A stretch of DNA of 44,983 nt from an uncultured Verrucomicrobia subdivision 3 bacterium. Its GTDB lineage: Bacteria; Verrucomicrobiota; Verrucomicrobiia; Limisphaerales; UBA11358. The position numbers and the translations under genes are program-made. The stretch is from the NCBI GenBank assembly GCA_903865745.1, contig CAIPKV010000005.1:1-44983 (forward strand), written 5' to 3'. Under the pieces are notes generated by a model. It had not been told where the DNA came from and did not search any database. It worked only from the letters and a program-made list of their open reading frames with translations. Of this stretch, positions 10,988 to 44,983 are shown one piece after another; the stretch's first letter is position 1, and every line of letters begins with the position of its first letter.

Positions 10988-12460
10988 ATGAAAATAACCA
11001 TAATGGCCCTTGTCCCGTATTCATTTCTGGCCATGTTTTTCACCGGTCTGTCTGTTGCCGCCGCCGCTTCTGGCGACCACGAATGGTTCTCCCTTAATGG
11101 GCAGTTTGTTGACTCGGGGAATCCCGTGGATGCGGATGGAGTGGTCCACCAATTCAATGCGCCGTGCTTGCAAGTCACACGCACCACGGTCGCCGCGCCC
11201 CAAGGCACCATTCTGCTGCTGCCGGGGGGGGGCTACCGGGGCTTGGAACTGGTGAATGAGGGAGCGAAAACGGTCGAAACCCTGAACCGCTTTGGCTTCG
11301 ATGTGGTGACGCTTCAATATCACATAGGCGCGGGCGACCAAACCCGCGATCTCGCTTTGCAAGACGCGCTGGCTGCCTGGCGCCTGTTGAAAAAGCATCC
11401 GCGCAAACTTCATATTCATGGCGGCCGCCTCGGAATCATGGGCTACTCCGCTGGCGGTCACCTTGCCGCCCGCACCGTCGAAACGCTGGCCGGCGGTTCA
11501 CCGAACGAACAGCCGGATGATCTGATATTGATTTATCCCGCTTATCTCGATGAGCGCACCCCAGGTTCAAGCGCGCCGCTGGTGGGCCCGCCGGCGCAGC
11601 CAAAGCCGCGCCTCATTACGATGATTGCCTCCAATGACAATCCGGCGTGGGTGCAGGGCAGCCGGGATTACACGGATGCCTGGATAAAATCCGGCGGCCA
11701 AGGAATTTTCTATCTTTTCAAGGATGGCGGCCACGGTTTCGGCATGAAGGAGCACCGCACCGGCGACATCGAGCAATGGCCGAAAATCCTCAATTACTTT
11801 CTGCAAAATGGCGTCACGCCCGGCGTCGGTCCCTTCAACACCACCGGTCTGCCGTGGTTTATTGATGGCCGAGACCATCGGCTGGCGCAGTTTGAAACGG
11901 ACCAGGCCAAGGACCAAGGTGCTGTTGTTTTTTTTGGCGATTCCATCACGGAACACTGGGACGTGGCAAAATATTTTCCGGATTTGAAAACCGCCAACCG
12001 CGGGATTTCCGGTGACACCACGCGCGGGATGCTGTGCCGGCTCCAGGACAATATCCTCAATCTTCATCCCCGGGCCGTCGTTTTTCTCGGCGGCATTAAC
12101 GACACCTGGCAGCAACCAGTAGGCACGCCGCAGACCGTTGCGACCAACGTGCGCTCCATCCTGGAAGGTATTCGTCAGGCAACGCCGCGGACGCCGGTGT
12201 TCGTGTGCGAAATATTGCCCACCTCCGGGAAGCCCGATGAACTTATCCGCGCCATCAACCGCACTGTGGACGGCGTGGTGAAGGAATTTCCGAATGCGCA
12301 CCGGGTGCGGACCCACGACCGGTTTTTGAATGCCGACGGGAAACTAAATGCGTCCTTGTTCAATGACGGCACGCATCCCTCGCCGGCCGGCTATGCGGTC
12401 TGGCAGGCGGCGGTGGCGCCGGAACTGGAGAAAATTCTCGGCAAACCGGAAAAAAAATAA
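10988..12460 (+). CDS. Secreted two-domain esterase: alpha/beta hydrolase fused to SGNH/GDSL hydrolase
   Basis: The start at 10988 puts a signal peptide at the N-terminus (MKITIMALV ... cleavage near AAAA); an upstream in-frame ATG at 10940 would bury it. The N-terminal domain (about residues 65-275) is an alpha/beta hydrolase with LPGGGY oxyanion region, nucleophile elbow GYSAGG (Ser ~154) and DGGHGFG (His ~249). The C-terminal domain (about 295-485) is [14 protein letters not shown] (block I Ser ~319), NRGISGDT (block II Gly), LGGINDT (block III Asn) and DGTHPS (block V Asp/His ~460-463). Both catalytic sets look intact. Family knowledge: both folds include carbohydrate acetyl esterases, so deacetylation of plant or microbial polysaccharide outside the cytoplasm is likely. 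The stop lies 4 bases before the next gene's ATG, suggesting co-transcription. Confidence 0.88.
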
Positions 12461-12464
12461 ATTT

Positions 12465-15400
12465 ATGAACCCCAAGATTCACCCCATGATCACACGAACC
12501 CTTTTTGCGCTTGCACTGGCATTGTTCGCGCCGCTGACCAGCCGGGCGCAATATCACTTCTTCAACGTCCCCGGCGGCTCGGACACCATCATGCAGGACT
12601 ACCGCTCGCCGGACGTGCCGCCGGGAATTTACGACGCGATCCACGAGGAGAATGTCAATAGTTCCGACGGCGGCTCCGGTTATTTTTACGGCGGTTTCAC
12701 GCACCAGAATTACATCAACGGCAGTCCCATGACGCTGGTGCAATACGTCTGCTGGCCCGCAAGCGGCGGATACGCGCCGTATTCGCAGCAGATTCCGACG
12801 TTCGCCGGCACGAACATGGTGGGCTTTGCACAGATCGGCGAGGGTAGCAGTTGCGCGATCAAGGGCTACTGGCCGCAGTTCACGACCAATCTCTGGACGC
12901 GCGAGGTCGTGCGCTACTGGCAACCGGCGGACGGCACGCCGCATGTCGGCTATCAAGGCATGTGGATCAAGGAGCCGGTGAGCGGCAACTGGTATCATGT
13001 CGGCACGTTTCTCTATCCGTTCGCGGTGACGGGCGTGACCGGCATGAGCGGCTGGCAGGAAAATTTCAGCAGTTACGGCGGCGACTACATTGTGGAGCAC
13101 GCCAACGGCTATTACCACAAAAGCGGAACGTGGTCGGCGGCAAACCAGATTTCGTTTACGACCTACAGCTACATCACCGTGCTGGGCGGAAACACGTTTG
13201 CGCGTTCTTCGGTCGGGCCGGATTACAGCAGTTTATATAACGTGCCGTTCACCGCGACCTTGAGCGGTCAGCCGTCCTCGCCGCCACTGGATCCCATCGT
13301 GGTGAACAGCGCCACGGCCACCGTTTATGGCTCGCAATTGCTGGTGCAATGGAATTTGCCGCTGACCAGTTCACCGCAGTTGCAATACCGGGTGGAGGTT
13401 TTTAACAATTCTAGTTACACCGGTTCGCCCGCCGTCACGTTTTTTGACCGCGAACCAGAGACGCGCCAGAAGCTGCTGAACATTTCCGGCGTCGCCACGC
13501 CCTACGTGCGGCTGACCATCGCGGACATTTTTTACCAGACGAATACGCCCATCCTCATCACGCCCACGACCGCCACGTTGTCGGCGGCGACGAACGTCTC
13601 CGGCACGGTCGCCGGGCTGGCGTATCAATACTTCGAGGGCAACTCCGGCGACTGGGGCAGCCTGCCAAACTTTGCCGCGCTCGCGCCGGTGCTGTCCGGT
13701 GCGGTGGATTTCCCCGATGTCTCGCCGCGCAAACGGCGCAGCAACTACGGCTTCACCTACAACGGATTTTTCAACGCGCCGTCCAACGGGCTTTACGCCT
13801 TTACGCTGCATTCCGGTGACGGTGCGAACGTCATGATTGACGGCACGACGGTCATCAATTTCGACGGCCTTCACGACTCGACGCAGTTCAAAGGCGGGGG
13901 CATTGCGCTCGCGCAGGGGCTGCATTCATTTAATGTGCAATTTTTCAAGGGTGCGCAAAACCCGTTGAACAACACGCTGACCGACGGCCTCGGTCTAACC
14001 TACGAGGGGCCAGGCATCGCATTGACGGGCGTTCCCGCGTCCGCCTACTCGCGCGTGCCGACAGGCACGGAACCGGTCATCACACTTGCGACACCGACGA
14101 GCGGCGCGACGATCCCCAATTTTAATCCCGGCCTTTCTGCGAGCGTCACGGCGAACGGCGCGACGGTCAACAGCGTCCAGTTTTTCCTGACCGACTTTTA
14201 TTCGTATTATCCGCGTCCGAGTAGCACCACAGATTACTATCTCGGCCAGGACACGACCCTGCCGTTCACGCTGAACTCGCTCATCTGGACCGCGCCGACC
14301 AATCTCGTCCGCGCCCGGCTGGTTTACAACAGCACCAACACGATTGACTCTGCGCCCGCCAGCATCGCCACCACGAATGGCTCGTTCGGTGCTTGGTTCT
14401 GGTCGCCGCTGGAAATGCACAATTATCCGTCCGGCGCGAACAAATCCGGCAACACGTTCAACATTCTTGGCGACGGCATGAATATGTTGAGCCGCCAGGT
14501 CACCGGCGATTGCACGTTCATCGGGCATTTGTCCGGCATTACGCCCTACAACGGCAGCACCGACGGCATCTGGCCCAGCACGGATTGGCGCGCGGGCATT
14601 GTCCTGCGCGGCACCACCAATGCCACCATCGGCCAGCCGCTCGGCGACGGCTCGGGCACCCGGTTCGCGGCGCTCTTCAGTTCGGTTGGTGGCGGAACCT
14701 ATTATGAAGATGACACAATGCGGAATGGAAACGGCGACGCGAACGCGTGGTCAAGCGATCTGGGTGGCGGCAACCGCTGGTATAAAATCCAGCGCGCGGG
14801 CGACACGTTCACCAGCTCCATCTCGCCGGACGGTGCGAATTGGACCGTGGTCAACACCGTCACGCTTTCCGGCATCGGCTCGTCCATTTACGCCGGTGTC
14901 TTCAGCCACGCCCTTCAATCCATGAATCCGAACATCCACTGGGCAAGTTTTGACAGTTACAGCCTGACCGGCGCCAACGTCGCCGGTCCGGCCAGCGTGA
15001 GCATCAGCCCGCAGACCAATTCCGTTGTCGGCGGTTTGCCTGCAACTTTCAACTCGATGATCGTTGGCCCGGTGCCCGCGAGCTATCAGTGGCAATTGAA
15101 CGGAACCAACATTGTCAATGCCACCAACGCCTCTTATACCATCGCCAGCGTCACCGCCAACAGCGTGGGCAGCTACACCGTCGTGGCCAACAGTGTCACG
15201 AGCGCGCCTGCCGCGCTGGTGATTTCGCTGCCCGCCGGTTCGGGCGTGTGGACGAATTTGAACGGCGGCAGTTGGGTGGTCGGCGGTAACTGGACCAATG
15301 GCGCGGTGGCCGGTGGCACGGATGCCGTGGCGGATTTCAGCACGTTGAACTTGAGTTTGAATCCGACCGTTTCGCTGAACGGCACGCGCACCGTCGGCAC

Positions 15401-18400
15401 GATTTTGTTCGACGACCAAAATGTTTCCGTAAAACACGGTTGGACTTTGAGCACCGGCTCCGTCGGGCCGTTGACACTGGCGACCAGCAGCGGCACGCCC
15501 AGCCTCGCCGTTCAAAGCTCCACCAATACCATCAGCGCCGTGGTCGCCGGTTCGCAGGGTTTCACCAAGACCGGCGCGGGCTATCTGGTCTTGAGCGGAG
15601 CCAGCACCGTTACCGGCAACATCGCCGTCAACAACGGCGCGCTCGAAATGCAAAACAAGTCCGGCGACACGACTTATTCCGTGGCCGCTGGCGCGACGTT
15701 GAAAATCGGATACAGCACCAGCGGCGGTTACGCGGGGACGGGCATGACGGTCTATGGCAACGGCGCGGCTGACTCCTCCGGCCTGTATCTCAAAGGCGGC
15801 ACCAGTTACGACGCTAACGGCGGCATTTTATTGAGCGGCGCACCCTGCACCATCCGGCAATATGGCTCGGGGCTCGCGAGCATCGGCCTGTTTGATGTCA
15901 ACGTGCCTCCGGGCTTGTCGGTCAACACCGCCGCTTCTGGCTCCGTGCTGGACCCGAACATCCAGTTGATCAGCCTCGGCTACGGGATGATTGTGACCAC
16001 CGACATCGGGGCGAACAACTGGAGCGGCGACCTGGTGGTCAACGGCTCGCTGAACGTCGGCAACCTTGGACTTTACAAGCAGGGCTGGGGATCGCTGGCG
16101 TTGAACGCCACGGCCAACAGCGGCAACGCGGCTGTCAATATCCAGTCGGGCGTCGTCTATTGCGGCGCGGTGAACTGCCTCGGCGTGAATGCATCAGTGC
16201 CGTTGACCGGCGGCTGGCTGGCCATGAACGGCTACAACCAGACGGTCGCCTCGTTGAGTGTCTCGAGCGGCAGCGGAATTAATTTCGGCGGCGCGAACAC
16301 CCTGACGGTCGGCGGCGCGCCCACTTTGTCCGGCACGTTGCAGATGCTAGTCAGCAAAAACGCCACGCGCACCAGCAGCCTGTTGAAGGTGAACAGCGGC
16401 ACGCTGACTTACGGCGGCGCGTTGTCCGCCGGTTTCACTGGCACCAATACGCTTGCAATTGGCGACACGTTTACCTTGTTCAATGCGTCCGGCTATGCCG
16501 GCAGCTTCAGCAGTCTCAGCCTGCCCGCCCTCCCTTTTGGGCTGGGTTGGAGCACGGCGAACCTCGCCGTCAACGGATCAATAACCATTGTCAGCAATAA
16601 TACAACCATCAATTTCTCGGCTCCCGGTTATTCGGGGGCGGGGGCGGACTCCGGCGGCGTCACGAGCGAGATCTGGAATACGATCACCCAGAATGGCACC
16701 ACCAGTTCCTGCAAGGACTCTCAAGGGAATACAACGGCGGTGACCTTCGTGGATGCATCGCCTTCATCATACGCTGGTTGCAGTAGTCCTGGGATTGCTT
16801 TATTCAGTCCCTTTTTCTATGGAAACAGTCCGGTAACTGAAACGTTTAACAATGTCCCCCCTGGTATTTACAATGTTTATGTCTATGGTGTAAACGGTTC
16901 CTGTGCCGGCCGGGGGGCAGTTTTCACCATCAATGGTGTTAGTAAAACGGTTTTGAACAACGGCAATACTTCGACGTTCCAATCCGGGGTGAACTACACG
17001 ATGTTCACGGTCACCAACACGACCGGCGCGATCAGTTTCACCTATTCACATAACTCCACTGGAACTGAAGCCGATTTCAATGGTGCCCAGCTCGTGTATG
17101 TCAGCACGTTGCCTTCCTATGCTTGGGACACCGCGCCGAACAGCGCCAATCTAAACACCGCGAACTGGACCAGCGGCACCACCTCCGGCTCCGGCACGGC
17201 CACGCCGGGCAGCGGCAGCAGCCTCTATTTCGGGGTTTCCAGCCAGACCTCGCCGGTCAACAACTTTGCCAGCGGTTACAACATTGCCGGCCTCACCTTC
17301 AATTCCGGGGCCAGCGCTTACACAATGAGCGGCAGTGTGGCGGACAATCTCGCTGGCGACATTGTCAACAACAGCACCAGCCTGCAAACCATCAATTTCC
17401 CCATGGCGCTCACGGCCAACCGCACCGTTAGTTTGACGAGTGGCGGAGGCAATGTTGCCTTGGGCGGGGTTATCAGTGATGGTGGCAACGGCTATGGTTT
17501 GACGACGGCTGGCAGCGGCCAGTTGACGTTGAACGGCTTGGAGACTTATAACGGAACGACCACGGTTGGCAGCGGAACCACCTTGACGGTGGGCGCGGCC
17601 GGTGAGCTCTACACCACCGCTTGGATCGGATCCACAGCGATCGCCGTCAATAGCGGTGGAACATTCCAAGTGAACGGTTGGGGTTACGGCGTTCTCGGTG
17701 GTGCGGGCCACGTCGCCAATACCATTCTTAACGGCGGCACCATCGAATATATTGGCAACGGCTCCAGTGGTTGGTGGTATCAAGGGGTTACCATGGAAAA
17801 CGGCGGCGGCACTTTGAAATCTTCCGGCAGCGCCACCTGGCAACTGTGGGATAACGGCGGCGGCAATCCGATTCAAATCCCAAGTTCACAAACGCTCACG
17901 CTCTCCGGCGCCGGCAATGCTTACATGGCCCAAACTATTTTTGGCAGCGGCAATCTCGCCAAGAGCGGCACGGGCATTTGGGAGCTTGACAACACGGAAT
18001 CCTCCGGTGGCAACCCCTTTACCGGTAATATTACGGTCAACAGCGGGGTCTTGGAAATCGGGCCGAATTGCTTGCTTTCCGGTTTAGGTGGCTCGCAAAC
18101 AATCACCGTCAACAGCGGCACCAAGATCCAGGTCAACAACTGGTCCTATGGCGCGGCCGGTGGCTTTGGCAACCTGTGGAACGGTCCCAGCCAGTGCGCT
18201 GTCAACGGCGGCACCATTGAATACGTCGGCTCCGGCAGTCCCGGCGGCACGTCGCAGGGCATCGCCATCGGGATTGGCGGGCTGACCTTGTTGAGCTCCA
18301 CGCCCGGTGTGACCTGGCCTTGGTGGGACAGCGGCTGGCCGTTCAACTCGGCCAATGGCATCACCCTCGGCGGCGTTGGTAATGGCATCATGTATAACTC

Positions 18401-19202
18401 TATTACCGGCAGCGGCCCGGTCACCAAGACCGGTCCGGGCACTTGGACCCTCGCGGCCGCGGACAATTACAGTGGCAACACTGTCATTAATTCTGGAACG
18501 CTTGCGTTAAGCAGCGCCGGCTCAATCGTAGGCACCACTCAACTTTTCATCGCTTCTGGCGCAGCGTTTGATGTCTCGGCCCAAACCAGTCCTTTGCAGC
18601 TCGGCTCCACTCAATCCCTAAATGCCGGTGCCAACGGGACGAACCCGGCGGGAACCATCGTGCTGGGCGCGGCGGCGGGGCTGACCTTGTCGTCCGGTGG
18701 ACTGTCATTTTCAAATTATGCCGGCGGCGGAATCGCACCACTCACCCTCATCGGAGCCGGCTCGTTTGCTTTGAATGGCGCGCCCGTCACCATCACCACC
18801 ACCGCAACTTTGCCGGTGGGCACTTATACCTTGATCGCCGCCCCCGGCGCAGCGACGGTCAGCGGCACGCCTAGCGCATTGACCGTCAACGGCAGTGGCA
18901 CGGCTGCCGCCGCGACGTTGGCCGTCAGTTCTGGGCAACTGATTCTCATTGTTGGCTCGCCGCCGGGAGCAGTTAATGCGACGTTAAGCTTTAACCAAAC
19001 TAACTCAATGGCGATGTTTTACGGCGTCGCCGGCAGTTATTATGTAACCCAACGTTCCACCAACCTGACGACGGGATCTGGCTGGGTGTCCATCGGCACA
19101 AACGCCGCCCCGGCCAACGGACTTTTTCAGGTCATGGATCGTTATCTCGACTTGGGCGGCGTGTCGCCAGGGTCGGCTTACTATCGTTTGCAACCGCGAT
19201 AA
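12465..19202 (+). CDS. Giant secreted surface protein: DUF3472, PA14, Ig-like, PATR repeats, carbohydrate-binding-like module
   Basis: The start at 12465 gives a signal peptide ([10 protein letters not shown], hydrophobic core, cleavage near SRAQ) four bases after the esterase stop; earlier in-frame starts give an Arg-rich nonsense leader. Of 2245 residues, the order by eye is: DUF3472-like domain (~28-255, [19 protein letters not shown]), beta linker, PA14 (~375-532, [24 protein letters not shown]), a laminin-G/DUF1349-like domain (~625-835), Ig-like (~842-922), PATR repeats (~925-1375), the beta-sandwich module shared with the two glycosidases (~1378-1547), a second PATR block (~1551-2015) with two WGYG/NGGTIEY units, and the C-terminal QRSTNL...YYRL module. 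It looks like a long stalk carrying glycan-binding heads. No outer-membrane barrel domain and no clear catalytic dyad were found. Confidence 0.82.
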
Positions 19203-35023: not shown

Positions 35024-35110
35024 GGACTTTGTTTCTGATAAGAAAACTGTCTTTCTTCGTGAACCGCACTCCCCGCGCGAAATCTTAGAAGCAAAAGCAT
35101 CGGAGCCGGG

Positions 35111-35167
35111 CAGTTTGTCACAGGTGGAGGCCGGACGGCATACGGACGGCACGACCTTGACAAACTG
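35111..35167. repeat. 10-bp perfect inverted repeat with internal direct repeat
   Basis: CAGTTTGTCA (35111-35120) and TGACAAACTG (35158-35167) are exact reverse complements around a 37-base spacer. The spacer contains ACGGACGGCA-like words in tandem. Position and size would suit an operator or a recombination or nicking site near the end of the mobile-element operon. Confidence 0.5.
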
Positions 35168-35273
35168 ACCGGCGACCTACCATGGAAACCGGATTCGCGC
35201 GCGTCCTGATTGGCGCGGTTGCCCCTCAACGGAATGACCTTGGGTGAAAAGGTGAAACGTGGATTTCCGCTCG

Positions 35274-35867
35274 TCAGCGATATTTGAATGCAATTACCAA
35301 GCCGACAACAAGACCAATCACGATGCCGACCGCAATTAATCCGAGCAAGGCCAGCCAGTCCCGTCGGATTTGCAGTCCGGCGATTCGGCCATCCAAGTCC
35401 TCGCAGGTTTTATGAAACCTTTCGCTGGCGGCTTTGAGATCGTTCTTGACCCGATGGTGCGCGGAAACCCCGTCGTCCAGATGTCTTCTGATGTCCATGG
35501 CAGCGGCTCCGATTTCCTTCAACTGACTGCGGAATGAACCGGATGCCTGATTCAACGCTTCGGTGTGAGCCTTGACGATGTTGTCTAATTCCCCGGTTTG
35601 CTCCGCACCAACGGCGGAGAAATTGCCGATCAGCGCGGCGGTCTGCCGCCGGTATTCGGCCAGATGCAGTTCAATCAATTTGCGGGATTCATTGACCGCC
35701 TGCGGCACGAGCGCCGCCGCGCGCCATTGCGCCCGCGTCAGCATCACAAGTTGGACGGGAAATCCGTTTTCGTCTCCGTCACACCATTCGGCCAAAATCT
35801 TCCGCAGCCGTTTGGCTTCGTCGGCGGACAGCCCATTGCACAAAAAATCAAAATCCGTGTCCTCCAT
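35274..35867 (-). CDS. Coiled-coil protein with C-terminal membrane anchor (TraM-position gene)
   Basis: 197 residues from ATG 35867, preceded by GGAG at good spacing (GGAGAATAATC ATG). This is one of the few clear Shine-Dalgarno sites in the window and it rules out the longer frame to 36014. The N-terminal part is acidic (MEDTDFDFLCNGLS), the middle is long, helical and rich in Glu/Gln/Arg, and the last ~30 residues are one transmembrane helix (LLGLIAVGIVIGLVVG) with a short basic tail, so the bulk faces the cytoplasm. No family recognised. By order (HTH protein, ParA-like ATPase, membrane protein) it corresponds to TraM in RP4-type Tra1 operons, a positional analogy only. Confidence 0.6.
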   Translation of the reverse strand: MEDTDFDFLCNGLSADEAKRLRKILAEWCDGDENGFPVQLVMLTRAQWRAAALVPQAVNESRKLIELHLAEYRRQTAALIGNFSAVGAEQTGELDNIVKAHTEALNQASGSFRSQLKEIGAAAMDIRRHLDDGVSAHHRVKNDLKAASERFHKTCEDLDGRIAGLQIRRDWLALLGLIAVGIVIGLVVGLVIAFKYR

Positions 35868-35869
35868 GA

Positions 35870-36688
35870 TTATTCTCCGAAGTTCAACTGCGGCTGCGGT
35901 TCGGCTTTCGCCTTCTCCTTGGCCGGCGCAGGTTTTTCCTTGGGAACAAATTCCGTCGGTAACAACAAATCCGCAATCGCGTCGTATTGCCGGAATAATT
36001 TCTGCATCGCCCATTGGATTTCACCGGCGAGCAACCGTTCCAAGTGACCAGCCTCAACGTGCGACAGTTCGGCGAAGCTCAAGCCACGCTTGGCGATGGC
36101 CTCGGCTTTTTCAATCGCCAGCAAGGTTGTTGGCGTGACAGCCGGCAACGTCACGGATTTCGCGCCAAACTCGATTAACTGCTTTTCCAGTTGTGAACCC
36201 TTGAACAAATCACCGCGCGCCTTGGCGGGATTGTTGACAATGCAATAATCCACGCGATCGCCCGCGTAGAGAAACAACCGTCCGGCGTTGGTCATGCTCT
36301 CCGTGTCGTCAGTCGGGAACAGGAAAAATGTCAGTCGCACACCCTGTTCGGCGCAGACGACCAGCACTTGCAATTCCTCCAGCGCACCCAAGATCAAGGC
36401 GTCGGCTTGAGCGCGGGTGTCAATGACGTGAACGGGTGCCGAATCTTTCAGCACCCGCCGGAACAAACTTAACAGAGCCGTCTTGCTCTCGTGTTCGTTG
36501 CCGAGATGATAGGAGCGGACTGCTTGTGGATGCCGGTTGGCAAAGGTGTGATGGCGGTCGTCGAGGTCGGAACCGTTCCACGGCACACCGAGCTGGTCGA
36601 GCCAGGCAGTGCGGAATTCGGCTTCAAAACTTTTGCCAAGATTGCCTTTGGACTGGGGATTGAGGTGGATGCGTCGGGTGGTGTTCAT
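35870..36688 (-). CDS. ParA/MinD-like deviant Walker ATPase (TraL/StbB-like)
   Basis: 272 residues. The N-terminus has NPQSKGNLGKSFEAEF, a deviant Walker A (KGNLGKS, signature Lys followed by GK-Ser) where ParA proteins have KGGxGKT. TAWLDQLG, HVIDTRAQAD (Walker A' / switch-like Asp) and VDYCIVNNPAKAR fit a ParA-type core. The tail (after ~240) is Lys/Pro/Glu-rich and likely disordered. The ATG overlaps the end of the HTH gene by four bases. ParA-like proteins in this gene position position plasmid DNA or transfer complexes (RP4 TraL, R388 StbB). Partition of an integrated or extrachromosomal element is the alternative. Confidence 0.7.
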   Translation of the reverse strand: MNTTRRIHLNPQSKGNLGKSFEAEFRTAWLDQLGVPWNGSDLDDRHHTFANRHPQAVRSYHLGNEHESKTALLSLFRRVLKDSAPVHVIDTRAQADALILGALEELQVLVVCAEQGVRLTFFLFPTDDTESMTNAGRLFLYAGDRVDYCIVNNPAKARGDLFKGSQLEKQLIEFGAKSVTLPAVTPTTLLAIEKAEAIAKRGLSFAELSHVEAGHLERLLAGEIQWAMQKLFRQYDAIADLLLPTEFVPKEKPAPAKEKAKAEPQPQLNFGE

Positions 36689-37050
36689 AGTTTTGTTGGA
36701 TCGTTGAGTTTGATGTTTTCAGGACTCGGTTGCCGGAATGAACGGGGAGTTGGCGTAGCCGCCAGCACCGGCTTAATGACTGGTGCTGTTGGCTTCACCG
36801 TGGCCGGTAGCGACATCACTGCTCCATCCTCCCAGTGAGGCTTGGCCTGCCGTTTCAGGTAGCGCCGGTAGAATTGGTGCAATCCCTGAAACGTGATGAC
36901 GCAACCTTTCTCGGTGCGAAGCAGCGCGGCGATTTCCTGCCATGTCCGGCGCTGCCGGCGCTGTTCGCGGATGAAGTCCACGAACGCTTCGAGGCGGCTG
37001 CGATAGGCGCGTCCGCCGCCACACCGTTCATTCTTGGTTTCCGAGTCCAT
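36685..37050 (-). CDS. Small helix-turn-helix protein (TraK/StbA-like)
   Basis: 121 residues. A basic N-terminal half contains FVDFIREQRRQRRTWQEIA and VITFQGLHQFYRRY, a predicted helix-turn-helix like those in plasmid TraK/StbA/MobC-type proteins that bind repeats near oriT. The C-terminal half is Pro/Thr/Ser-rich and disordered. It is the first gene of a three-gene minus-strand operon (stop overlapping the ATPase start). A phased GTTGAA array starts ~110 bases upstream and is the obvious candidate binding site. Confidence 0.6.
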   Translation of the reverse strand: MDSETKNERCGGGRAYRSRLEAFVDFIREQRRQRRTWQEIAALLRTEKGCVITFQGLHQFYRRYLKRQAKPHWEDGAVMSLPATVKPTAPVIKPVLAATPTPRSFRQPSPENIKLNDPTKL

Positions 37051-37160
37051 TCACCGCCAGTTTAGGTCAATGCGAATCAACTGTGTTAGCGAGTAGCGGG
37101 CGGATTGAGCCGGGAAAATGAGCGAGTTAATGCCGGTAACTTTTGTGTTTATTGAAAGGC

Positions 37161-37260
37161 GTTGAATCGCCGGTTGAAAATTGTTGAACGGTGTTGAACC
37201 CTGATGTTGAAAGTTGTTGAGCCGCGTTGAATTCATCAACGCCCTTCAACGCATTTCAAC
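37161..37260. repeat. Helically phased GTTGAA repeat array with inverted arm
   Basis: GTTGA(A) starts at 37161, 37173, 37183, 37193, 37206, 37216 and 37226; after that the inverted form (T)TCAAC ends at 37240, 37250 and 37260. Most steps are exactly 10 bases, with two of 12-13, so sites lie on one face of the helix. Seven direct and three inverted half-sites lie just upstream of the operon for the HTH and ParA-like proteins, as with stbA-type or iteron repeats. Confidence 0.75.
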
Positions 37261-37454
37261 ATGATGCTTTATGTCACCGGCGCATCGCCAAAAAGCCTAC
37301 GCGAAATCGTAGGGGTGAGGCGTCCACCTTTAAGCAGACGAATAGGAGGCCAACCCATTTGCATAAAATCCGACCGGCATCGGTCAAACACGAATGTTCA
37401 TTGCCAACATTTGGCGATGGTTGATTGGATGAAAATTGATCTCGTGTCGCGCTG

Positions 37455-37616
37455 AATGTCCGTTTCTGAAACCGGAGCGCAACGAAGCGGATGTGGAGTA
37501 AGTGAGGTTTTAGAAACGGACATTGAGGGCGTGACAGACTTGGTTCAGGTCACCTGCCGGCGGTTTGTCTGCGCGGTTTGTAAGGCACGCGCAAACCGGG
37601 CAGTCAAAGCGCCGTG
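37455..37616 (+). ncRNA. Structured two-stem element, copy 1 (candidate RNA or folding ssDNA)
   Basis: Stem 1 is AATGTCCGTTTCT (37455-37467) with AGAAACGGACATT (37512-37524), 13 perfect pairs. Inside it lies a small hairpin CGC, loop AACGAA, GCG (37478-37489). Stem 2 runs from CGGCG (37558-37562) to CGCCG (37610-37614) with inner helices TTTG/CAAA, CTGC/GCAG and GGTTTG/CAAACC, closing on a loop that includes AAGGCACGC. Copy 2 keeps both stems with different bases. Strand and transcription are unknown; plus is written only for reading convenience. Confidence 0.55.
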
Positions 37617-37670
37617 ATCCCACCGTTCAATTTAGTTCCGGTTCGTTCCCGCTGGATTGCCAGCGCACTG

Positions 37671-37827
37671 AACCGGCGTTTCTGAAATCGGAGCCGACGG
37701 AACGGCTGTGGAGTCGCGGGATTTTGGAAACGCCGGTTGAGTGCGGTGCCGGCTAGGTGCAGTCCCGGCGGTTTAGTCTGGCTGGTTTCCAAGGCACGCC
37801 GGAAAGCCAGCCAGTCTAAACGCCGTG
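37671..37827 (+). ncRNA. Structured two-stem element, copy 2 (candidate RNA or folding ssDNA)
   Basis: Stem 1 is AACCGGCGTTTC (37671-37682) with GAAACGCCGGTT (37727-37738), 12 perfect pairs. Its inner hairpin is AGCCG, loop ACGGAA, CGGCT (37692-37707). Stem 2 is CGGC (37766-37769) with GCCG (37822-37825), then GTTTAG/CTAAAC, CTGGCTGG/CCAGCCAG and TTTCC/GGAAA, loop AAGGCACGCC. Shared unpaired words with copy 1 are TGTGGAGT and AAGGCACGC, and CGCCGTG also recurs at the right foot of stem 2. Copies are offset by 216 bases. Confidence 0.55.
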
Positions 37828-37930
37828 GAAATTTATCTTGTGGGTCTGGCCCACCTTGGGTCTGAACGATTCTGCCGGATTGACCGCCGCTAGATGAACA
37901 GAGTGCCTGACGGTTGTCAGATCCGCCAAA

Positions 37931-38356
37931 TTACTTCTTCTTGGCGGCTTGGGCGGCCCGAACCTTGGCCCAACGCGCTTTCGTAGCGGCAATAATCCGG
38001 GCCATTCCTTCCGGACTGATCTTGCCTTTCTTGGAAGCCGGTTTGGCAACCGTAACCGCTTTGACCGCGGGTTTAACAGCCACTACGGCTTTGGCGGCAG
38101 GCTTGGTCACCGGAGCGGGTTTGGCTTTGGCCGCGTTGATCTTGGCCCAACGTGCTTTGGCTTTGGCGGAGAGAATGGCTTTGGCGGCAGCACTCATCAC
38201 GAACTTTTTGGCCACCACCGGTTTGGCCGCCCTGGTGGGAGCAGGTGTGGCACCGCCGCTGAAAAGGGCCGTGAGTTCTTGGTTCAGGCTGGCAATCTGT
38301 TCTTTGAGATCGGCGGCCTGTCTGAGCTGGGCGGAAGTTAGATTGATCAGACTCAT
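37931..38356 (-). CDS. Histone H1-like Lys/Ala-rich DNA-binding protein
   Basis: 141 residues. A short helical N-terminus (LTSAQLRQAADLKEQIASLN) is followed by a strongly basic Ala/Lys/Pro-rich tail. Two related units end in AKAKARWAKI (~residue 63) and AATKARWAKV (~125), a motif common in small bacterial H1-like or NUMOD3-like proteins. It is probably a nucleoid-associated protein. It sits 16 bases downstream of the HU gene on the same strand, which suggests co-expression of two DNA-packaging proteins. Confidence 0.65.
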   Translation of the reverse strand: MSLINLTSAQLRQAADLKEQIASLNQELTALFSGGATPAPTRAAKPVVAKKFVMSAAAKAILSAKAKARWAKINAAKAKPAPVTKPAAKAVVAVKPAVKAVTVAKPASKKGKISPEGMARIIAATKARWAKVRAAQAAKKK

Positions 38357-38372
38357 AAAATTAAAATATCAC

Positions 38373-38660
38373 TTACTTGGTGCCGAGGATGGCGTCCTTG
38401 GCGGCTTTGGCGACACGGAATTTCACGACGCGCTTGGCCTTGATCTTGATGGTTTCGCCGGTGGCCGGGTTGCGGCCCATGCGCGCGGCACGGTTGACGA
38501 GGACCAGCTTGCCGAGGCCGGGAATGGTGAAACTGTTCTTAGCGTTCTTGTAGGCCAGTTGAACGAGGGATTCCAGGACTTCAACGGCCTGTTTCTTGGT
38601 GAGGTTGTTCTTGGTGGCGAGTTCCGCCGCGATTTGTGATTTGGTCAATGCTTTTGCCAT
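38373..38660 (-). CDS. HU/IHF family DNA-binding protein
   Basis: 95 residues: MAKALTKSQIA at the N-terminus, the helical dimerisation part (KKQAVEVLESLVQLA), FTIPGLGKL, then the DNA-binding beta-arm region RAARMGRNPATGETIKI, with the conserved arm-tip RNPATGE. It binds and bends DNA and compacts the nucleoid. It is co-oriented with the H1-like gene and divergent from the J-domain-like gene at 38776. As part of a mobile-element region it could be an accessory copy. Confidence 0.93.
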   Translation of the reverse strand: MAKALTKSQIAAELATKNNLTKKQAVEVLESLVQLAYKNAKNSFTIPGLGKLVLVNRAARMGRNPATGETIKIKAKRVVKFRVAKAAKDAILGTK

Positions 38661-38775
38661 AATCTGAATAGAAGCAGTTCCATCAACAACGTGCTTTCTC
38701 AGCCTATTGGCCGCGAGCAGGCGCGAAGATGCGCTGGAAGTGGGGCGGGCGGACTGATACTGTGCGGCACTTTTA

Positions 38776-39846
38776 ATGCCACGCCGCGCGCCCAGACAAA
38801 AAACCCACGGTCAAGCCGACGTTCACGCTCACGCGGGCAACCATTGCCGCGCGCTGGTGCGGGTGGATGGCTCGGGCATCCGGAAGAAAATCAAGCAGGA
38901 CTACGAGAAGGCGCGGCGCGACTTGGACAATTCGCGGCGGGTGCTCGACCAGTTTCAGCAGACGGATCAGCCGCAGTTCATGCGTTGGCTGAACAGTCAC
39001 TTCGGGGCGTTACTCACGGAACTCCGGGAACTTAATCTGAAGCTGGCGGCGGATGAGGCCATCGTTTTCATGGTGCAGAACGAAGTGATGTTTGGCGGCG
39101 GCTCCTACGCCCGGGCTTTCAAGCGGGTGATGGAACTGCGGGATAATCCTGAACCACCGCCACCACCCCCGCCGCCCGGCGGCGAACGGGATAGGAATCC
39201 GTTTGGAGCGGGACCGGACTGGGGAAATCCGCACGGCCCGGACGATCCGCTGAAAGCCATTTTCGAAGAGATGTTCGGCGAGGTTGGGCCGGATGAACGA
39301 CCCTGGGAAGAGCGCGGTCGTCAAGCCGGGCATCCTCCCCAAGCCGCTGCGTCGGCGCACGTTTCGAAACGGCTCAAGGAATTGTATCGCGCGGTGGTGC
39401 GCCGATTGCATCCGGACAGTCAGCGGGAAATGACGGCGCAAAAAACGGAATGGTGGCATCAGGCGCAGGCGGCCTACGAAGCGGGCGACGCGGAGCAACT
39501 GGAAGTGATCCTGACACTCTGCGAGATCGGCGAGCGCGGCACGACGGCGCACACGAGCGCCTCGCTGTTGCAGCGGATCACGGCGCAGTTGAGAAGTTCG
39601 CTGCGGGAGATCAAACGGCAGATCACCCAACGGCGGCGCGAGCCAGCGTGGAATTTTTCCAAACGAACCGACCACGCGGCGATGGCGGACCAAGTGGGAC
39701 GGGAGTTGCGGGGCGAGCTGATGGCGATGAAGCAGCGGTGGATGGATACGCAGGAGGTGATTGCGAAGTGGAAAGCGGCGGCGGAAAAGCTCAAGCCGCG
39801 GCGGCGGAAGGCGCAATCATTCAGGGACGGGGAGTTTCAGCTTTAA
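38776..39846 (+). CDS. J-domain-like protein of unknown role
   Basis: 356 residues. The N-terminal ~45 residues look unlike the rest, and the start could be further in (a GTG lies near 38859). A helical segment (IKQDYEKARRDLDNSRRVLDQF), a Pro run (EPPPPPPPPGG) and a Gly/Asp/Pro-rich linker lead to KELYRAVVRRLHPDSQREM (~residues 200-215), which carries the HPD tripeptide and spacing of a J-domain. A basic, coiled-coil-prone C-terminus follows. HPD suggests interaction with an Hsp70 partner, but flanking helices are weakly matched. No partner gene is nearby. Divergent from HU. Confidence 0.55.
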   Translation: MPRRAPRQKTHGQADVHAHAGNHCRALVRVDGSGIRKKIKQDYEKARRDLDNSRRVLDQFQQTDQPQFMRWLNSHFGALLTELRELNLKLAADEAIVFMVQNEVMFGGGSYARAFKRVMELRDNPEPPPPPPPPGGERDRNPFGAGPDWGNPHGPDDPLKAIFEEMFGEVGPDERPWEERGRQAGHPPQAAASAHVSKRLKELYRAVVRRLHPDSQREMTAQKTEWWHQAQAAYEAGDAEQLEVILTLCEIGERGTTAHTSASLLQRITAQLRSSLREIKRQITQRRREPAWNFSKRTDHAAMADQVGRELRGELMAMKQRWMDTQEVIAKWKAAAEKLKPRRRKAQSFRDGEFQL

Positions 39847-39887
39847 GGTCGCGCAGATTCTGGCGGTCGGGGCGGACGGAAGCGCCA

Positions 39888-39922
39888 TTGACAAGCCGGT
39901 GCCAAAGTGGCACCATACAGGC
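39888..39922 (+). promoter_or_regulatory. Promoter and palindromic operator of the DUF1778/GNAT pair
   Basis: TTGACA (39888-39893) is followed by a perfect 7-bp inverted repeat, GGTGCCA (39898-39904), AAG, TGGCACC (39908-39914). It ends nine bases before the antitoxin ATG. Ribbon-helix-helix antitoxins of this type bind such palindromes to repress their own operon. No consensus -10 is obvious. Confidence 0.6.
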
Positions 39923-40207
39923 ATGGAACAAGTTTTAGACGAACCGCGCAAGCGGATCACGGCCCGCGTCTCTGACAGCGTGCGCGACACGCTGGAGCAG
40001 GCGGCGGAGCTTTTGGGCGCGACGGTCAATCAATTCGTCGTGCAAACGGCGTATGTGGAAGCGCAGCGCGTGATTGAACGCGAGTCGGTCATCCGGCTTT
40101 CGCAGAAGGACGCGCACAAAATTCTGGCCCTGCTGGACAATCCGCCGAAGCCCAACAAGCGGCTGAAAGACGCGGTCAAAATCTACAAAGGCGCGGTCCG
40201 TGCATAA
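39923..40207 (+). CDS. DUF1778 ribbon-helix-helix antitoxin (TacA-like)
   Basis: 94 residues from ATG 39923. The N-terminal strand KRITARVSDSVRDTLEQAAELLG and following helix TVNQFVVQTAYVEAQ are the DUF1778/TacA RHH fold. The C-terminal tail (LDNPPKPNKRLKDAVK) is the type that wraps the GNAT toxin. The upstream frame to 39761 overlaps the J-domain gene and is not used. Overlaps the toxin start by eight bases, which favours coupled translation. Confidence 0.85.
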   Translation: MEQVLDEPRKRITARVSDSVRDTLEQAAELLGATVNQFVVQTAYVEAQRVIERESVIRLSQKDAHKILALLDNPPKPNKRLKDAVKIYKGAVRA

Positions 40208-40706
40208 AATTGAACTGCTGGCGAAGACTCACGACCGGGACGGTTTCGATTGCGGTAGTGAACCGTTGAATCTGTTTCTGAAGCAAACTGCGCGGCAACA
40301 CGCGGAGCGCGGAATCTCGCGAACTTTTGTGCTGGTGGATGAGGCCGTGCCTGCGCCAAAACCCATTGTCGGATTTTTCTCGCTCAACATCTGCCAGATC
40401 AAATCCGAGTCGCTGACGCCGCAAGAGGCCAAGAAGCTGCCGCGCGAGGTGGCCGGTGTCCGGCTGGGTCGGTTGGCGGTGGCCAAAGCGAACCAGCGGC
40501 AAGGCATCGGAAAAGCCCTGCTGGTGGCGGCGATGGGGAAGTTTATTGAAATTTTCAACACGGCGGGAGGGATTGGTCTGTTCGTGGACGCCAAAGACCA
40601 GGAGGCCAAACGCTACTATGAGCAATTTGGGTTTGTCTCCCTGCCTTCAAATGAATTGGAATTATTTCTGCCGGTCAAAACGATCCAAGAGGCACTGAAC
40701 GCATAA
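40200..40706 (+). CDS. GNAT acetyltransferase toxin (TacT-like)
   Basis: 168 residues from a GTG at 40200. FDCGSEPLNLFLKQTARQH is the hallmark start of TacT-type toxins, followed by VGFFSLNICQI, the acetyl-CoA loop RQGIGKALL (~100) and YYEQFGFVSLP near the end. Family members acetylate the amino group of aminoacyl-tRNA and block translation. The antitoxin is immediately upstream, so the pair reads as a stability module of the mobile region. Confidence 0.88.
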   Translation: MHKIELLAKTHDRDGFDCGSEPLNLFLKQTARQHAERGISRTFVLVDEAVPAPKPIVGFFSLNICQIKSESLTPQEAKKLPREVAGVRLGRLAVAKANQRQGIGKALLVAAMGKFIEIFNTAGGIGLFVDAKDQEAKRYYEQFGFVSLPSNELELFLPVKTIQEALNA

Positions 40707-41057
40707 CCAGCGGGGAGAGCGTGGATTATTTGGCCAATGGCGGGATGCGGTGAGCTTGGCTGCTGATTTTTAATCCCCGAAAATCAGCCTCAATGGGGTG
40801 TAAATAGTCGTTTATGGCAATCGGTGGCAAACGGTTTCGGGCGTCAAATCTCCGCCCCCCAAGAGCCAAATTTCATTCGTCAAAATCCGCCCTCCCCACA
40901 AAGGAAAGGTTCGCCAGAACGCCGCCAAGCCCCCCAAAAATGCTCAATTCGTGTCCCTTTCGGCGAGGATTTCAATCAATCGCGCCGGACGGCGCTTCAA
41001 AAGCAAAATGGCCCGCTGACGAACGTCAGCGAGCCGCGCAAAATTACTTCGGGAATT
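40707..41057. other. Gene-free stretch with dispersed repeat copy B
   Basis: Between the convergent GNAT toxin and HigA genes. It holds the 40774-40840 repeat and then a C-rich plus-strand stretch with several CCCCCC runs (40850-40945). Reading frames here lack recognisable content. Confidence 0.45.
40774..40840 (+). repeat. Dispersed repeat, copy B (matches 4394-4459)
   Basis: Contains GCCTCAATGGGGTGTAAA and TGGCAATCGGTGGCAAACGG, in the same orientation as copy A about 36.4 kb away. Its inner part is itself a near-tandem TGGCAANCG. Confidence 0.6.
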
Positions 41058-41061
41058 TGTG

Positions 41062-41355
41062 TCAGGTGGCGTCCACCAATTCAATCCGCACCGCTTTGCC
41101 CAACGCCCGTGCCACCCGCGACACCGTGGACAAACGCACGTCTTCGGCATGGTTTTCCAGCCGTGAAATCGCCGACTTTTTCGTCTTGGTGATTCGGGCC
41201 AATTTTTCCTGGGTCACACCGGCTTGTTCACGGGCTTCCCGCAGCATCAGGCCAATCTTGAACTCGGCATAGCCCGTTTCAAAATCTTTCGCAAACGCCT
41301 TGTCGGTGCGTTTGCGCCGTTCGATGTAATTTTCCACGTCGTTTTTCATAGTCAT
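41062..41355 (-). CDS. HigA-like XRE-family antitoxin
   Basis: 97 residues from ATG 41355, whose ATGA overlaps the toxin stop; a second in-frame ATG is at 41349. A Cro/C1 helix-turn-helix covers about residues 35-85: [19 protein letters not shown] and [11 protein letters not shown], then [11 protein letters not shown]. The protein is HigA-like in size and order (toxin first). It should bind its own promoter and neutralise the RelE-like toxin. Confidence 0.88.
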
Positions 41356-41699
41356 TTCTTTCGGCTTAAATAATCCCGCTTGCGTTGTTCCGCCAGCGCC
41401 AGTTCGCGTTCCGGGGTTTTCTGCGTCTTCTTGGCAAAACCATTCGTCAGGATGATCAAACGCCCGGCATCCAAAAAACCCAGCAACCGGAATGCGTCGC
41501 CGCCAAATTCCGCCCGCACCTCCCAAAGATCATCGCGCCCCTCCAGTTTTTTGAAATACTGCTGCGGCACGCGCGGCAGTTCTTGGACGGCGCGCAGCAC
41601 CCACAAGACCTTTTGCACCTGCTTCGCGTTCAGCGAATCCAGAAACTCTTCCACCGGACAGGCTCCGGCTGCGGTCCGGTAATACTGGACTTCCAACAT
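41352..41699 (-). CDS. HigB/RelE-superfamily toxin (Gp49/DUF891-like)
   Basis: 115 residues from ATG 41699 ([12 protein letters not shown]), chosen because the promoter leaves no room for the longer frame to 41735. The sequence [11 protein letters not shown], the helix [31 protein letters not shown] and [13 protein letters not shown] follow the Gp49/HigB pattern, with the basic residues of the last block expected at the ribosome-dependent mRNA-cleaving site. Partner antitoxin overlaps downstream. Confidence 0.88.
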
Positions 41700-41706
41700 T
41701 GTGCCA

Positions 41707-41735
41707 ATGTTAACGCAATTGTGAACCTCTGTCAA
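41707..41735 (-). promoter_or_regulatory. Consensus sigma-70 promoter of the higBA-like operon
   Basis: On the minus strand TTGACA (41735-41730) and TAACAT (41712-41707) are separated by exactly 17 bases. The start ATG (41699) lies only seven bases past the -10, so the transcript should be leaderless or nearly so. Confidence 0.75.
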
Positions 41736-41795
41736 ACCCGGTCGCGCGCCGTTTTCGCCGTGCGCAGCAAGGTGAAGCTGTTCGCGGCCTGATTC

Positions 41796-44612
41796 TTAAA
41801 CGTGGACCCCGTGCGATTTTGAAACCTGTTGCGTTTGCGTCTGACGAATCGCCTCGTGTTCCCGCGCCCGCCGGCTATTGGTCATCAGCACCGCCCTGCG
41901 TTTGCCCCAGCGTTTGGCGATCAGGCGATAAAGCGGGTTGTTTTGATAATGCGCCGCTAGCAGGTCAAGCACCGACAGCCGATTCCCGCTGCGCGTGATG
42001 TTCTCGCGTAGCTGCTCCTTGTCGCTGGTAAAAATATGAATCCCCTTCTTGCCGCGCGAAATAGTGACATACCATTGCTGCTGATTCGTCGCCGCCTTCG
42101 CTGCGGAATCGGAAAATAACACCTGATCCACAGACTTGCCCTGCGAGGCGTAGGACGTGATGGCATAGCCCCGGACAAACTGCCGGAAGTTTTTGTCCAG
42201 CACCCGACCGTCCGCCAGCGCGATGCGCCCGTCGGGATGAACCATCTTGACCGTCACCAGTTCGCCATTGACCAGCTTACGGTTTTCGATGCTGCGGCCA
42301 TTAACCTTGAGTTGCAGCCGGTCACCGGAAGCTAATGCCAGTTCCTTGCGCTGGCAGGCCGTCAGTTTGTCGAGTTGCTTGAACGGAATGGGAACCGTCC
42401 GAGACTCTGCTTCCACCAGCAAATGCGTGTCCGTAATCTGTTTCAACTTCGCCGATTCACCGGACTTAAACCCGCGCACGTCCCGATTGAACACCAGCAC
42501 ACTGTTTTCATCATAAGAACGGACATCCTGTTTTTGCGCGTCGGTCAAATCCACCGGCTGAAATGCTGTCACAGTGGTTTCCGATTCACCAATCAATTTG
42601 TCCTGCTTGAGCGCGCCGCGAATGGCGTCATTCACTTTATGAATCTCATTCCAACTTTGGGAAACGACCACCGTGGATTGATGCTCTTTTACCAGTTCCA
42701 AGTAACGTGCCGTGAGCTTTTCATGTTTGTCAGCCAACGTGCAGGATTCGATGGTTTTCATTTTGTCCAGCCGCTCAAAAGATTCCGTGAACTTGCCGTC
42801 GCGGGCCTCCGTGACCGCCTGCCGGTATTCCCGAATGCGCCGGCGTTCCTCGATGTATTTGGCCAGGGCCGGATTTTGGCGGCGGATGTTCGTCAATTCC
42901 ACGGAGGGGATGCCAGAGTGTTTTTCAATCGCGCGTAACGCATCCGTCGCCTCGACCGCGCCGTGCTGCCGGGTGTCGCCCGACAAAACCAGCCGTGCCT
43001 TTCGCTGCACCACCAATCGGATCAACTCCAACATGGTCTTGCCACCAAGCTGGCCGGCCTCGTCCACGATGACGGCGGTGCCTTGAGCCAGTTCACGTCT
43101 GGCCAGAAAACTGGCCACGGTGGCCGGCGCGGGAAATCCGTCGCGTTCCATGTCCAGCACCTGCTGGCGTTGCGGCGCGAGGACGACCACACCACGCCCG
43201 TTGTCATGAATTTGTCCGACCATTTCACGCAGCACAAAACTTTTGCCGGTGCCGGCACCGCCGCGAAAGACCGAGACGCGGTTGCGGTTGGCTAACAGCG
43301 CGGCTAGGGCTTCACGTTGTTCCTCATCCAGCTTGGAATCAAACGGCTTTGACTCCCACACCAGTGGATAACAATCACTGATGCCCTGCCTCACGGCGCA
43401 GACAATTTGCAATTCGCGTTCGAGATGCTCGCGTGTGGAAACCTGGCTGGGATGATGGTCAAATCGCAGATAGCCGCGCTGCCGCGTGACGGCTTGAATG
43501 TCCGCCAATGAAACATCCCGACCTCGGGCGCGTTCGAGCGCGTGACGCCACAGCTCATGCTCGTGGACGATGGAGCGGCGTTCAAACAGATGTTGTTCCG
43601 CCCAGGCGACCGCCTGCTCGGAAACCTTCACGTCGGGAACCAGCACGGGAGATTTTGTCACCGTCAAACGGTTCAACGATGATATTTCATCCGCCGTCAT
43701 CTGGCCGGCCCACACGGTTTGCAGTTTTGCCAAACCGATGTCCCGAATTTTCCGGGGCCGTTCCTTGTGCGCGATGTTTTCACGGATGGCGGCAAGATTG
43801 CCCTCGGCCTTTTCCGGCTCGCGAGCCAGCAGTTCCCTGGTCTGTTGGTCAATCTCCCGATGCCGCTTGGAAAATCTTTCAATCAGTGCCGACGCGACAC
43901 CCTTGATTTCAAAATCACCGCGCGGTTTGTTTTCAATCTGATAACCGAACTTTACCAGTTCGCGCGTGAGCTCATGGTAATAGACATTCTCGACAAACTT
44001 CTGTGCCGCGAACATCTCGTGGTTTTGCAACGCCTTCCATTGCTTTTCGATGGCATCAAACGTGGCGTTGAAAACGATGCAGTGCGTGTGCAGGTGCGGA
44101 TCAAGTGCCCGCGACGTGTCATGCCGAAACATGGCAGCCACCAAGTTGCCCGTTTGCCGGTCGGTGCATTGGCCGTTTTTGCGCACACGAGTTGCGGCAA
44201 AGGTTTGCAATTGAATCATGGCCGACGCCACCGCTTGTTCGTGCGCCTCGACGATGTGCGCGTCATCTCCCACGAGTGCCGCGATGGATACGGATTTGGG
44301 CGGTGAAAAAGTAAAATCGTAAAACACTCGGCGATTTGCCGTCTCGCGTTCCTTGCCATCCGCCCCCATCTCGGTTCGGGTGGTCTTTTGCCGGAGCGTC
44401 AGCCGTTCGCCGGTCTGCGGATGAAGATTTTCACACAGGCGGGTGAACTCGTCGCCGGTGGTGACGCCATTCAGTCCAAGGTCGGCGGCACCCTGACCGA
44501 ACCAATGGCCGGGGACGGTTTGCCCTACGGCGTAATAATCGCCGACCGCCAGATGTTCCTTAAAATATTTTTTGGCGTCTCCAAGATTATATTGCGCCTT
44601 GGGTGCGAGCAT
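41796..44612 (-). CDS. MobF relaxase-helicase (TrwC/TraI type)
   Basis: 938 residues from ATG 44612 (MLAPKAQYNLG), the position where TrwC homologues start; a TTG nine codons upstream (44639) is possible. The relaxase domain (~1-300) has Tyr16, Tyr26 and Tyr27 near the N-terminus (TrwC uses Tyr18 and Tyr26), FYDFTFSPPKSVSI and the metal-binding HUH motif in DPHLHTHCIVFN. A RecD/TraI-like SF1 helicase follows: VFRGGAGTGKSF (Walker A, ~450), VIVDEAGQLGG (Walker B), LVLSGDTRQHG, and near the end GYAITSYASQGKSVDQVL and TISRGKKG. It nicks oriT, stays bound to the 5' end and unwinds DNA for transfer. The coupling protein and secretion genes are not in the window. Confidence 0.93.
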   Translation of the reverse strand: MLAPKAQYNLGDAKKYFKEHLAVGDYYAVGQTVPGHWFGQGAADLGLNGVTTGDEFTRLCENLHPQTGERLTLRQKTTRTEMGADGKERETANRRVFYDFTFSPPKSVSIAALVGDDAHIVEAHEQAVASAMIQLQTFAATRVRKNGQCTDRQTGNLVAAMFRHDTSRALDPHLHTHCIVFNATFDAIEKQWKALQNHEMFAAQKFVENVYYHELTRELVKFGYQIENKPRGDFEIKGVASALIERFSKRHREIDQQTRELLAREPEKAEGNLAAIRENIAHKERPRKIRDIGLAKLQTVWAGQMTADEISSLNRLTVTKSPVLVPDVKVSEQAVAWAEQHLFERRSIVHEHELWRHALERARGRDVSLADIQAVTRQRGYLRFDHHPSQVSTREHLERELQIVCAVRQGISDCYPLVWESKPFDSKLDEEQREALAALLANRNRVSVFRGGAGTGKSFVLREMVGQIHDNGRGVVVLAPQRQQVLDMERDGFPAPATVASFLARRELAQGTAVIVDEAGQLGGKTMLELIRLVVQRKARLVLSGDTRQHGAVEATDALRAIEKHSGIPSVELTNIRRQNPALAKYIEERRRIREYRQAVTEARDGKFTESFERLDKMKTIESCTLADKHEKLTARYLELVKEHQSTVVVSQSWNEIHKVNDAIRGALKQDKLIGESETTVTAFQPVDLTDAQKQDVRSYDENSVLVFNRDVRGFKSGESAKLKQITDTHLLVEAESRTVPIPFKQLDKLTACQRKELALASGDRLQLKVNGRSIENRKLVNGELVTVKMVHPDGRIALADGRVLDKNFRQFVRGYAITSYASQGKSVDQVLFSDSAAKAATNQQQWYVTISRGKKGIHIFTSDKEQLRENITRSGNRLSVLDLLAAHYQNNPLYRLIAKRWGKRRAVLMTNSRRAREHEAIRQTQTQQVSKSHGVHV

Positions 44613-44646
44613 TTTCGCCGACGTAAATCTTTTGGCCAAAATTGTG

Positions 44647-44970
44647 TCAACGCGGAGCCGAAGTGCTCATCTGAATCACCACACCATTCAGCCTTTTGGA
44701 TTTGCGTGCATTCTTGGCCTGCCAGTGGTGGCTCAAAGCTGCGGTGGCCCGTGACAACCATTCTTCGTCGTCTTCCAGTTCCAGCACTTTTTTCCGGCTG
44801 AAATATTTTTCACTGCTGGGGGCGGGCCGACCCAGCGGTTTCAGCAGACCGCGCGCGACCAGAATCGGCAGATCGTGCGGCTTGAAACCCAGGCAGGCCG
44901 CGACTTGCACAATATTCATCCGGGCGGGCAGCCGCACCAGATTCAACAGCTCTTTTAGTTCGTTGTTCAT
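44647..44970 (-). CDS. Small MerR/AlpA-like helix-turn-helix protein
   Basis: 107 residues. MNIVQVAACLGFKPHDLPIL with VARGLLKPLG and YFSRKKVLELEDD form a winged-helix pattern as in MerR/excisionase-type small DNA-binding proteins. A basic C-terminus (NARKSKRLNG) follows. It is immediately upstream of the relaxase on the same strand (short gap), so it may be a transfer-operon regulator or relaxosome accessory factor. Its start lies 13 bases from the window end, so upstream context is lost. Confidence 0.6.
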   Translation of the reverse strand: MNNELKELLNLVRLPARMNIVQVAACLGFKPHDLPILVARGLLKPLGRPAPSSEKYFSRKKVLELEDDEEWLSRATAALSHHWQAKNARKSKRLNGVVIQMSTSAPR

Positions 44971-44983
44971 AGTGTTTTTTCTC

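Follow-up and report, generated by a model that had tools for sequence, protein, structure and literature searches.

The window analysed here, a stretch of 44,983 nucleotides from an uncultured Verrucomicrobia subdivision 3 bacterium, carries towards its right end a three-gene operon, a relaxase gene and two copies of a folded element, called HP1 and HP2 below (Table 1). The relaxase is of the MobF (TrwC/TraI) type: it scores 290 bits against Pfam PF08751 (cut-off 25) and 240 bits against the NCBIfam MobF model (cut-off 100), and its residues Y25, Y35, Y36, H173, H184, and H186, which make up the catalytic tyrosines and the three-histidine metal site, are invariant with TrwC of plasmid R388. 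Among the operon proteins, the AF2 model of p272 (pLDDT 84) finds Get3, HypB, ParF, and MipZ in Foldseek at E-values of 7e-7 to 1e-4, which points to a ParA/MinD-type ATPase fold. The AF2 model of p121 (pLDDT 72) consists of four helices, and neither by sequence nor by fold does this protein have a significant match in the PDB. Elsewhere in the window, at 7721–10312 and 12348–19202, large surface proteins of 863 and 2284 aa with passenger-associated transport repeats are encoded.

Table 1. Features of the element in the window, with related features of other loci (rc, reverse complement).
Feature	Position	Strand	Remarks
p201	35274–36014	-	predicted coiled coil and C-terminal hydrophobic/membrane segment; StbC position; homologous part ~35274–35880
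p272	35870–36688	-	ATPase, P-loop QSKGNLGKS; predicted ParA/Get3/HypB/ParF fold; StbB position
p121	36685–37050	-	small helical DNA-binding-like protein by the repeats; StbA position; 4-bp overlap with p272
Direct repeats	37161–37260		six copies of GTTGAA in steps of 10–20 bp, then two inverted TTCAAC; between p121 and HP1
HP1	37449–37613	+	short sub-type two-stem element, 165 nt; ends from the all-copy alignment
HP1 parts	~37449–37530; ~37531–37558; ~37559–37613		stem 1; unpaired linker (GTGACAGACTTGGTTC...); stem 2
HP2	37665–37824	+	second copy in HP1 orientation, 160 nt; 51 bp past HP1
HP2 parts	~37665–37744; to 37824		stem 1; linker with CCGGCTAGGT follows, then stem 2 to the end
Exchanged cargo block	37691–41027		absent from L004, the sister element in the same genome; starts within the 5′ part of HP2
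MobF	41796–44639	-	relaxase-helicase (TrwC/TraI type), relaxase and helicase domains
p120	44647–44982	-	conserved small protein adjoining MobF, close to the element's right end
Sister structured element	L267 rc 1860–2225; L275 rc 1650–1990; L276 3500–3900		three hairpins enclosed by a long stem AATAATTCTGTC..GACAGAATTATT that shows compensatory changes
tRNA-Ser 3′ end copies	L004 14947–14975; L280 3005–3033; genome contig 15 755–810

The first-pass annotation had described two diverged copies of a common two-stem architecture. Both are present, with limits now refined to those of Table 1; they share 74.5% identity over 161 nt (blastn, E 2e-8), and the gap that separates them recurs at equal length in L004 and L205. 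Their predicted folds have z-scores of -6.3 (HP1) and -7.5 (HP2), with none of 200 shuffled sequences folding as well. Some details had to be revised. The closing stem, at first taken to be 12–13 bp long, actually counts some 20 pairs, interrupted by mismatches that are fixed. Both window copies do have the tip word AAGGCACGC, but the family has several tip types, of which this is one, and among the unpaired words that were thought to stay fixed, TGTGGAGT reads GGCGGAGT in the longer sub-type.

Profile and covariance-model searches brought together 74 usable, near-complete copies that could be aligned with their flanks. HP is a new family of strand-specific two-hairpin elements. Its consensus fold (RNAalifold, 24 copies) is made of an outer stem 1 (enclosing a helix or sub-hairpins), a linker, and stem 2, and lengths fall into two classes of ~152–169 nt and ~184–191 nt, the longer sub-type (~187 nt) containing an additional part of ~25 nt within stem 1. 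The conserved unit begins with G(C)ACTGAAC and ends with ..AAAGCGCC; both ends are sharp in the all-copy alignment, and outside them the flanks vary from locus to locus. The linker is conserved and unpaired, with the consensus CCGnnTAGGTT, and the letters preceding TAGG vary (GTCT, GTAT, GCAT, GGAT).

The compensatory changes first seen between the two window copies extend to the whole family. In a count over the 24 copies, 97% of the paired cells agree with the named structure and 24 of the 46 pairs show double compensatory changes; several single mismatches are retained within the stems. The covariation score is 0.320, as against 0.133±0.009 for shuffled alignments (0/500 as high), and falls to 0.03–0.06 when pair partners are slid by 1–3 columns. 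The plus strand also folds better than the minus strand in all 74 copies, the mean difference being 17.7 kcal/mol with RNA parameters and 7.6 with DNA parameters. Selection on the fold, as already proposed for the window pair, is thus supported by the strong covariation, and selection on one strand in particular by this unanimous preference. The element is not protein-coding, as no reading frame stays open in the majority of copies and their lengths fall in all three residues modulo 3. Nor does it belong to a family described in Rfam: not a single match over the whole window reaches a gathering score, and those obtained for HP at relaxed E-values are implausible eukaryotic microRNAs and snoRNAs only.

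Within the order, 33 of 293 sampled genomes contain HP, and within the genus 16 of 49 do, while in a sample of 388 genomes of the phylum it occurs in the window's own genome only. That genome has four HPs in all, the second pair lying on contig 73. Profile-confirmed matches on GTDB contigs come from Verrucomicrobiota (subdivision 3, Limisphaerales and similar) or from MAGs labelled simply “bacterium,” and the hosts are soil and freshwater Verrucomicrobiota. Pattern matches in other phyla are due to chance and, like those in viral contigs, were not confirmed by the profile; a distant blastn search of a plasmid collection returned none. MobF is present in 31 of 34 HP genomes as compared with 52 of 286 others (Fisher p = 1.6e-17), the HP and MobF genome samples behind these counts overlapping without being identical. 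The three HP genomes without MobF are incomplete assemblies. HP is part of a mobile element that carries a MobF relaxase, and the co-occurrence that the first-pass annotation had suggested looking for does exist.

The order of genes on this element is recurrent: p201, p272, and p121 on the minus strand, repeats, HP on the plus strand, and then either cargo or MobF directly. In elements without cargo, HP lies ~350–600 bp upstream of MobF and shares its orientation. The window and L004 are the reverse of most relatives, since their MobF is on the strand opposite to HP; in the window it is thus on the strand of the operon, while in most relatives the two are divergent. Repeat arrays precede p121 in many loci, with GTTGAA in one group and a GCGACAA-like word in another, and inverted copies at the end. 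These direct-repeat arrays resemble a ParB/StbA-type binding array.

Such a layout recalls that of the IncW plasmid R388, stbABC - stbDRs - oriT - trwABC, where the stbDRs form an array of direct repeats upstream of stbABC (PMC3098194). HP occupies the matching slot, between a divergent three-gene operon with repeats and MobF, and the repeats of the window resemble the stbDR array in design. Compared singly with R388 StbA, StbB, and StbC by hhalign, however, p121, p272, and p201 give E-values of 0.03–0.3 with probabilities below 2%, and a search with p272 for NCBIfam StbB has no match. Because no sequence homology to the Stb proteins is detectable, what is claimed for p201-p272-p121 is a likeness of layout and type, and not membership.

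HPs number from one to three per element (three in L200), always in constant orientation, and they flank unrelated cargo. Fourteen neighboring pairs in the same orientation were found on single contigs, with gaps from 51 bp to 6.8 kb. The intervening genes are unrelated to each other and encode a helicase bearing a restriction-type nuclease domain, radical SAM proteins along with a glycosyltransferase, a DNA-alkylation-repair protein, a DUF6036 nucleotidyltransferase, and a family that matches nothing in Pfam; the single HPs of L041 and L028 are followed by histidine-kinase and beta-lactamase-fold genes. Excluding MobF and p120, the first gene to the right of HP is on the minus strand in 41 cases out of 54 and on the plus strand in 13; to the left, 50 out of 68 first genes are on the minus strand. 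Between the stop codon of a minus-strand cargo gene and the 3′ end of the HP upstream of it, the median distance is 45 bp, and it is the template strand of these genes that folds. At the start of the window's own cargo, an ORF for a lysine/alanine-rich, histone H1-like protein (37931–38356, minus strand) is followed by an HU/IHF-like coding region read by eye (within 37931–38800).

How this cargo changes hands is best seen by comparing the window with L004. Their backbones (35057–37691 and 41027–44983) are 89–90% identical, but the cargo between them differs, its place in L004 being taken by an unrelated block of ~1.2 kb with a 254-aa gene. Divergence begins in the first ~15–26 nt of HP2; the right end of the block is not an HP. 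In 15 independent pairs, HPs with a shared left flank turn to unrelated sequence inside the element, seven times in the linker, seven times in stem 1, and never at the 3′ end. Recombination at HPs is therefore clear from these comparisons, as cargo is replaced starting at an HP in the window and L004, and switches occur in stem 1 or the linker elsewhere. The crossover points are spread from the start of HP to the base of stem 2, and a crossover fixed at the linker or at one end was rejected. So was the idea of HP as an independent insertion: no exact empty site was found, and no spanning match goes beyond shared HP ends. Comparison of loci also shows the HP cargo to move as a unit: between L026 and L203 the radical SAM cargo and its upstream HP (HP1) are 90% identical, as against 75% for MobF.

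Do elements without HP manage with nothing in its place? The MobF sister elements L267, L275, and L276 carry a different large structured element in the slot between p121 and MobF (Table 1), similar to HP by its position and its compensated long stem but of unrelated sequence and different architecture. Since these sisters bear another structured element there, the comparison lends support to the view that a folded element in cis is required in this slot. Another HP-less sister, L248, has CCTAGACCTAGACTGCC in an imperfect hairpin within the p121-MobF gap (2470–2500). The nick-like word GTCTAGGT, common to L248 and the HP linker, lies on the opposite (reverse) strand in L248 and was discounted as evidence. 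As for the element ends, copies of a tRNA-Ser 3′ end, 27–29 nt long, are located ~0.7 kb beyond MobF/p120 in L004, in L280, and near the beginning of contig 15, a stretch homologous to where the window element ends. On account of these copies, these elements are probably integrative, with an attachment end of the tRNA-Ser type; in the scanned stretches of contig 73, no complete tRNA turned up at the opposite end.

The explanation preferred here, to which we give a little short of an even chance, is that HP serves the MobF transfer machinery as a folded site in single-stranded DNA, comparable to an oriT, and is at the same time the boundary at which cargo recombines. HP would then be a cis-acting site of an integrative, mobilizable element. 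Once single-stranded through relaxase nicking, transfer, or replication, the plus strand would fold into two hairpins separated by the unpaired linker, and the latter would be recognized by the machinery of the element, most simply by MobF itself. Since an element's HPs are direct repeats, cargo could be inserted, removed, or swapped through strand exchange, either among them or with the HP of another element. The R388 relaxase indeed acts on a hairpin-containing single-stranded substrate, and TrwC recombines copies of oriT and integrates DNA there (PMC3264647). By analogy, hairpins that are strand-specific, directly repeated, and next to a relaxase with single-stranded hairpins as its substrate suggest a site of the oriT type, and HP does adjoin both the stb-like operon and the relaxase gene in cis. 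HPs sit in the position expected for a transfer origin and mark the edges of swappable cargo, probably as sites where single-stranded DNA is handled.

Several observations nevertheless argue against the oriT reading. When the stb-like operon and MobF are superimposed on R388, the folded strand of HP is opposite to the nicked one, so that the orientation would be reversed if the folded strand were also the one nicked, and the linker only resembles the R388 GTCT/A, its variable letters being loose for a nick site. Unlike the R388 oriT, HP is 160–190 nt long with two stems, occurs one to three times per element, and flanks cargo, and no coupling-protein gene was seen beside it. The HP genomes lacking MobF, the scattered crossovers, the missing empty site, and the non-HP right end of the cargo also weigh against it. 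The interpretation of the first-pass annotation is thus partly supported: a putative transfer or recombination site fits the MobF co-occurrence, the R388-like layout, and the cargo flanked by copies, although sequence does not separate RNA from single-stranded DNA.

HP might instead be a structured RNA of the mobile element, transcribed from left to right; it could, for instance, serve the MobF operon as a leader or regulator, or control transfer as a small RNA. RNA parameters give the larger strand preference, G-U pairs stand at fixed places (such as U-G at columns 159/182 of A3 in 39 of 41 copies), and the co-orientation with MobF in cargo-less elements would suit a leader; yet MobF is on the opposite strand in the window and L004, transcription of HP1 would run antisense into minus-strand cargo, and no conserved promoter-like pair was found within HP, making such an RNA possible but rather unlikely. 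A single-stranded promoter or priming site of the Frpo/ssi type, driving leftward genes from the incoming strand, would agree with the mostly minus-strand first genes on both flanks. Frpo elements are likewise folded single-stranded DNA, present in several copies per mobile element near the leading-region genes of plasmids (PMC11541004). HP copies bound cargo, however, and their -35/-10 score equals that of shuffled sequence on both strands, on which ground HP was rejected as a promoter; the TTGAC-like word of stem 2 even becomes TTAGAC with compensation. This reading is improbable.

The arrangement of genes and sites also calls integrons to mind, and HP could be the site of a separate recombinase, attC-like or other, with MobF a mere companion. 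Like attC, HPs are imperfect, strand-selective hairpins, directly repeated beside exchangeable genes close to their stop codons, with the cassette template as the folded strand, and integron integrases score above the curated cut-off in 19 of 49 genomes of the genus. But HP has two stems rather than one and lacks the R/L core boxes (perfect RYYYAAC in 0/74 copies, GTTRRRY in 35/74), which led us to reject it as an attC; moreover, the window genome, with its four HPs, has no integron integrase above the cut-off, and no constant recombinase gene accompanies the element, so that a separate recombinase seems quite improbable. Very improbable, finally, is that HPs are mere repeats for homologous recombination by the host, their fold serving something else or nothing: the mosaic breakpoints, which do not fall at a single nucleotide, speak for this, but the covariation and strand bias demand a function for the fold, and the unit ends are sharp on both sides.

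If the oriT-like reading is taken one step further, MobF would capture, lose, and swap single-stranded cargo at HPs during transfer, in a gene-cassette system that would parallel integrons, with a conjugative relaxase in charge, a doubtful but conceivable scenario. In any case, a previously undescribed, covarying, and strand-specific element marks a family of MobF mobile elements in an uncultured order whose mobilome is hardly known, and cargo exchange at this element is demonstrated. Should the relaxase prove to be the recombinase, integron integrases would not be alone in capturing cassettes, and the recombination of oriT by relaxases, so far a matter of laboratory assays, would gain a natural role.
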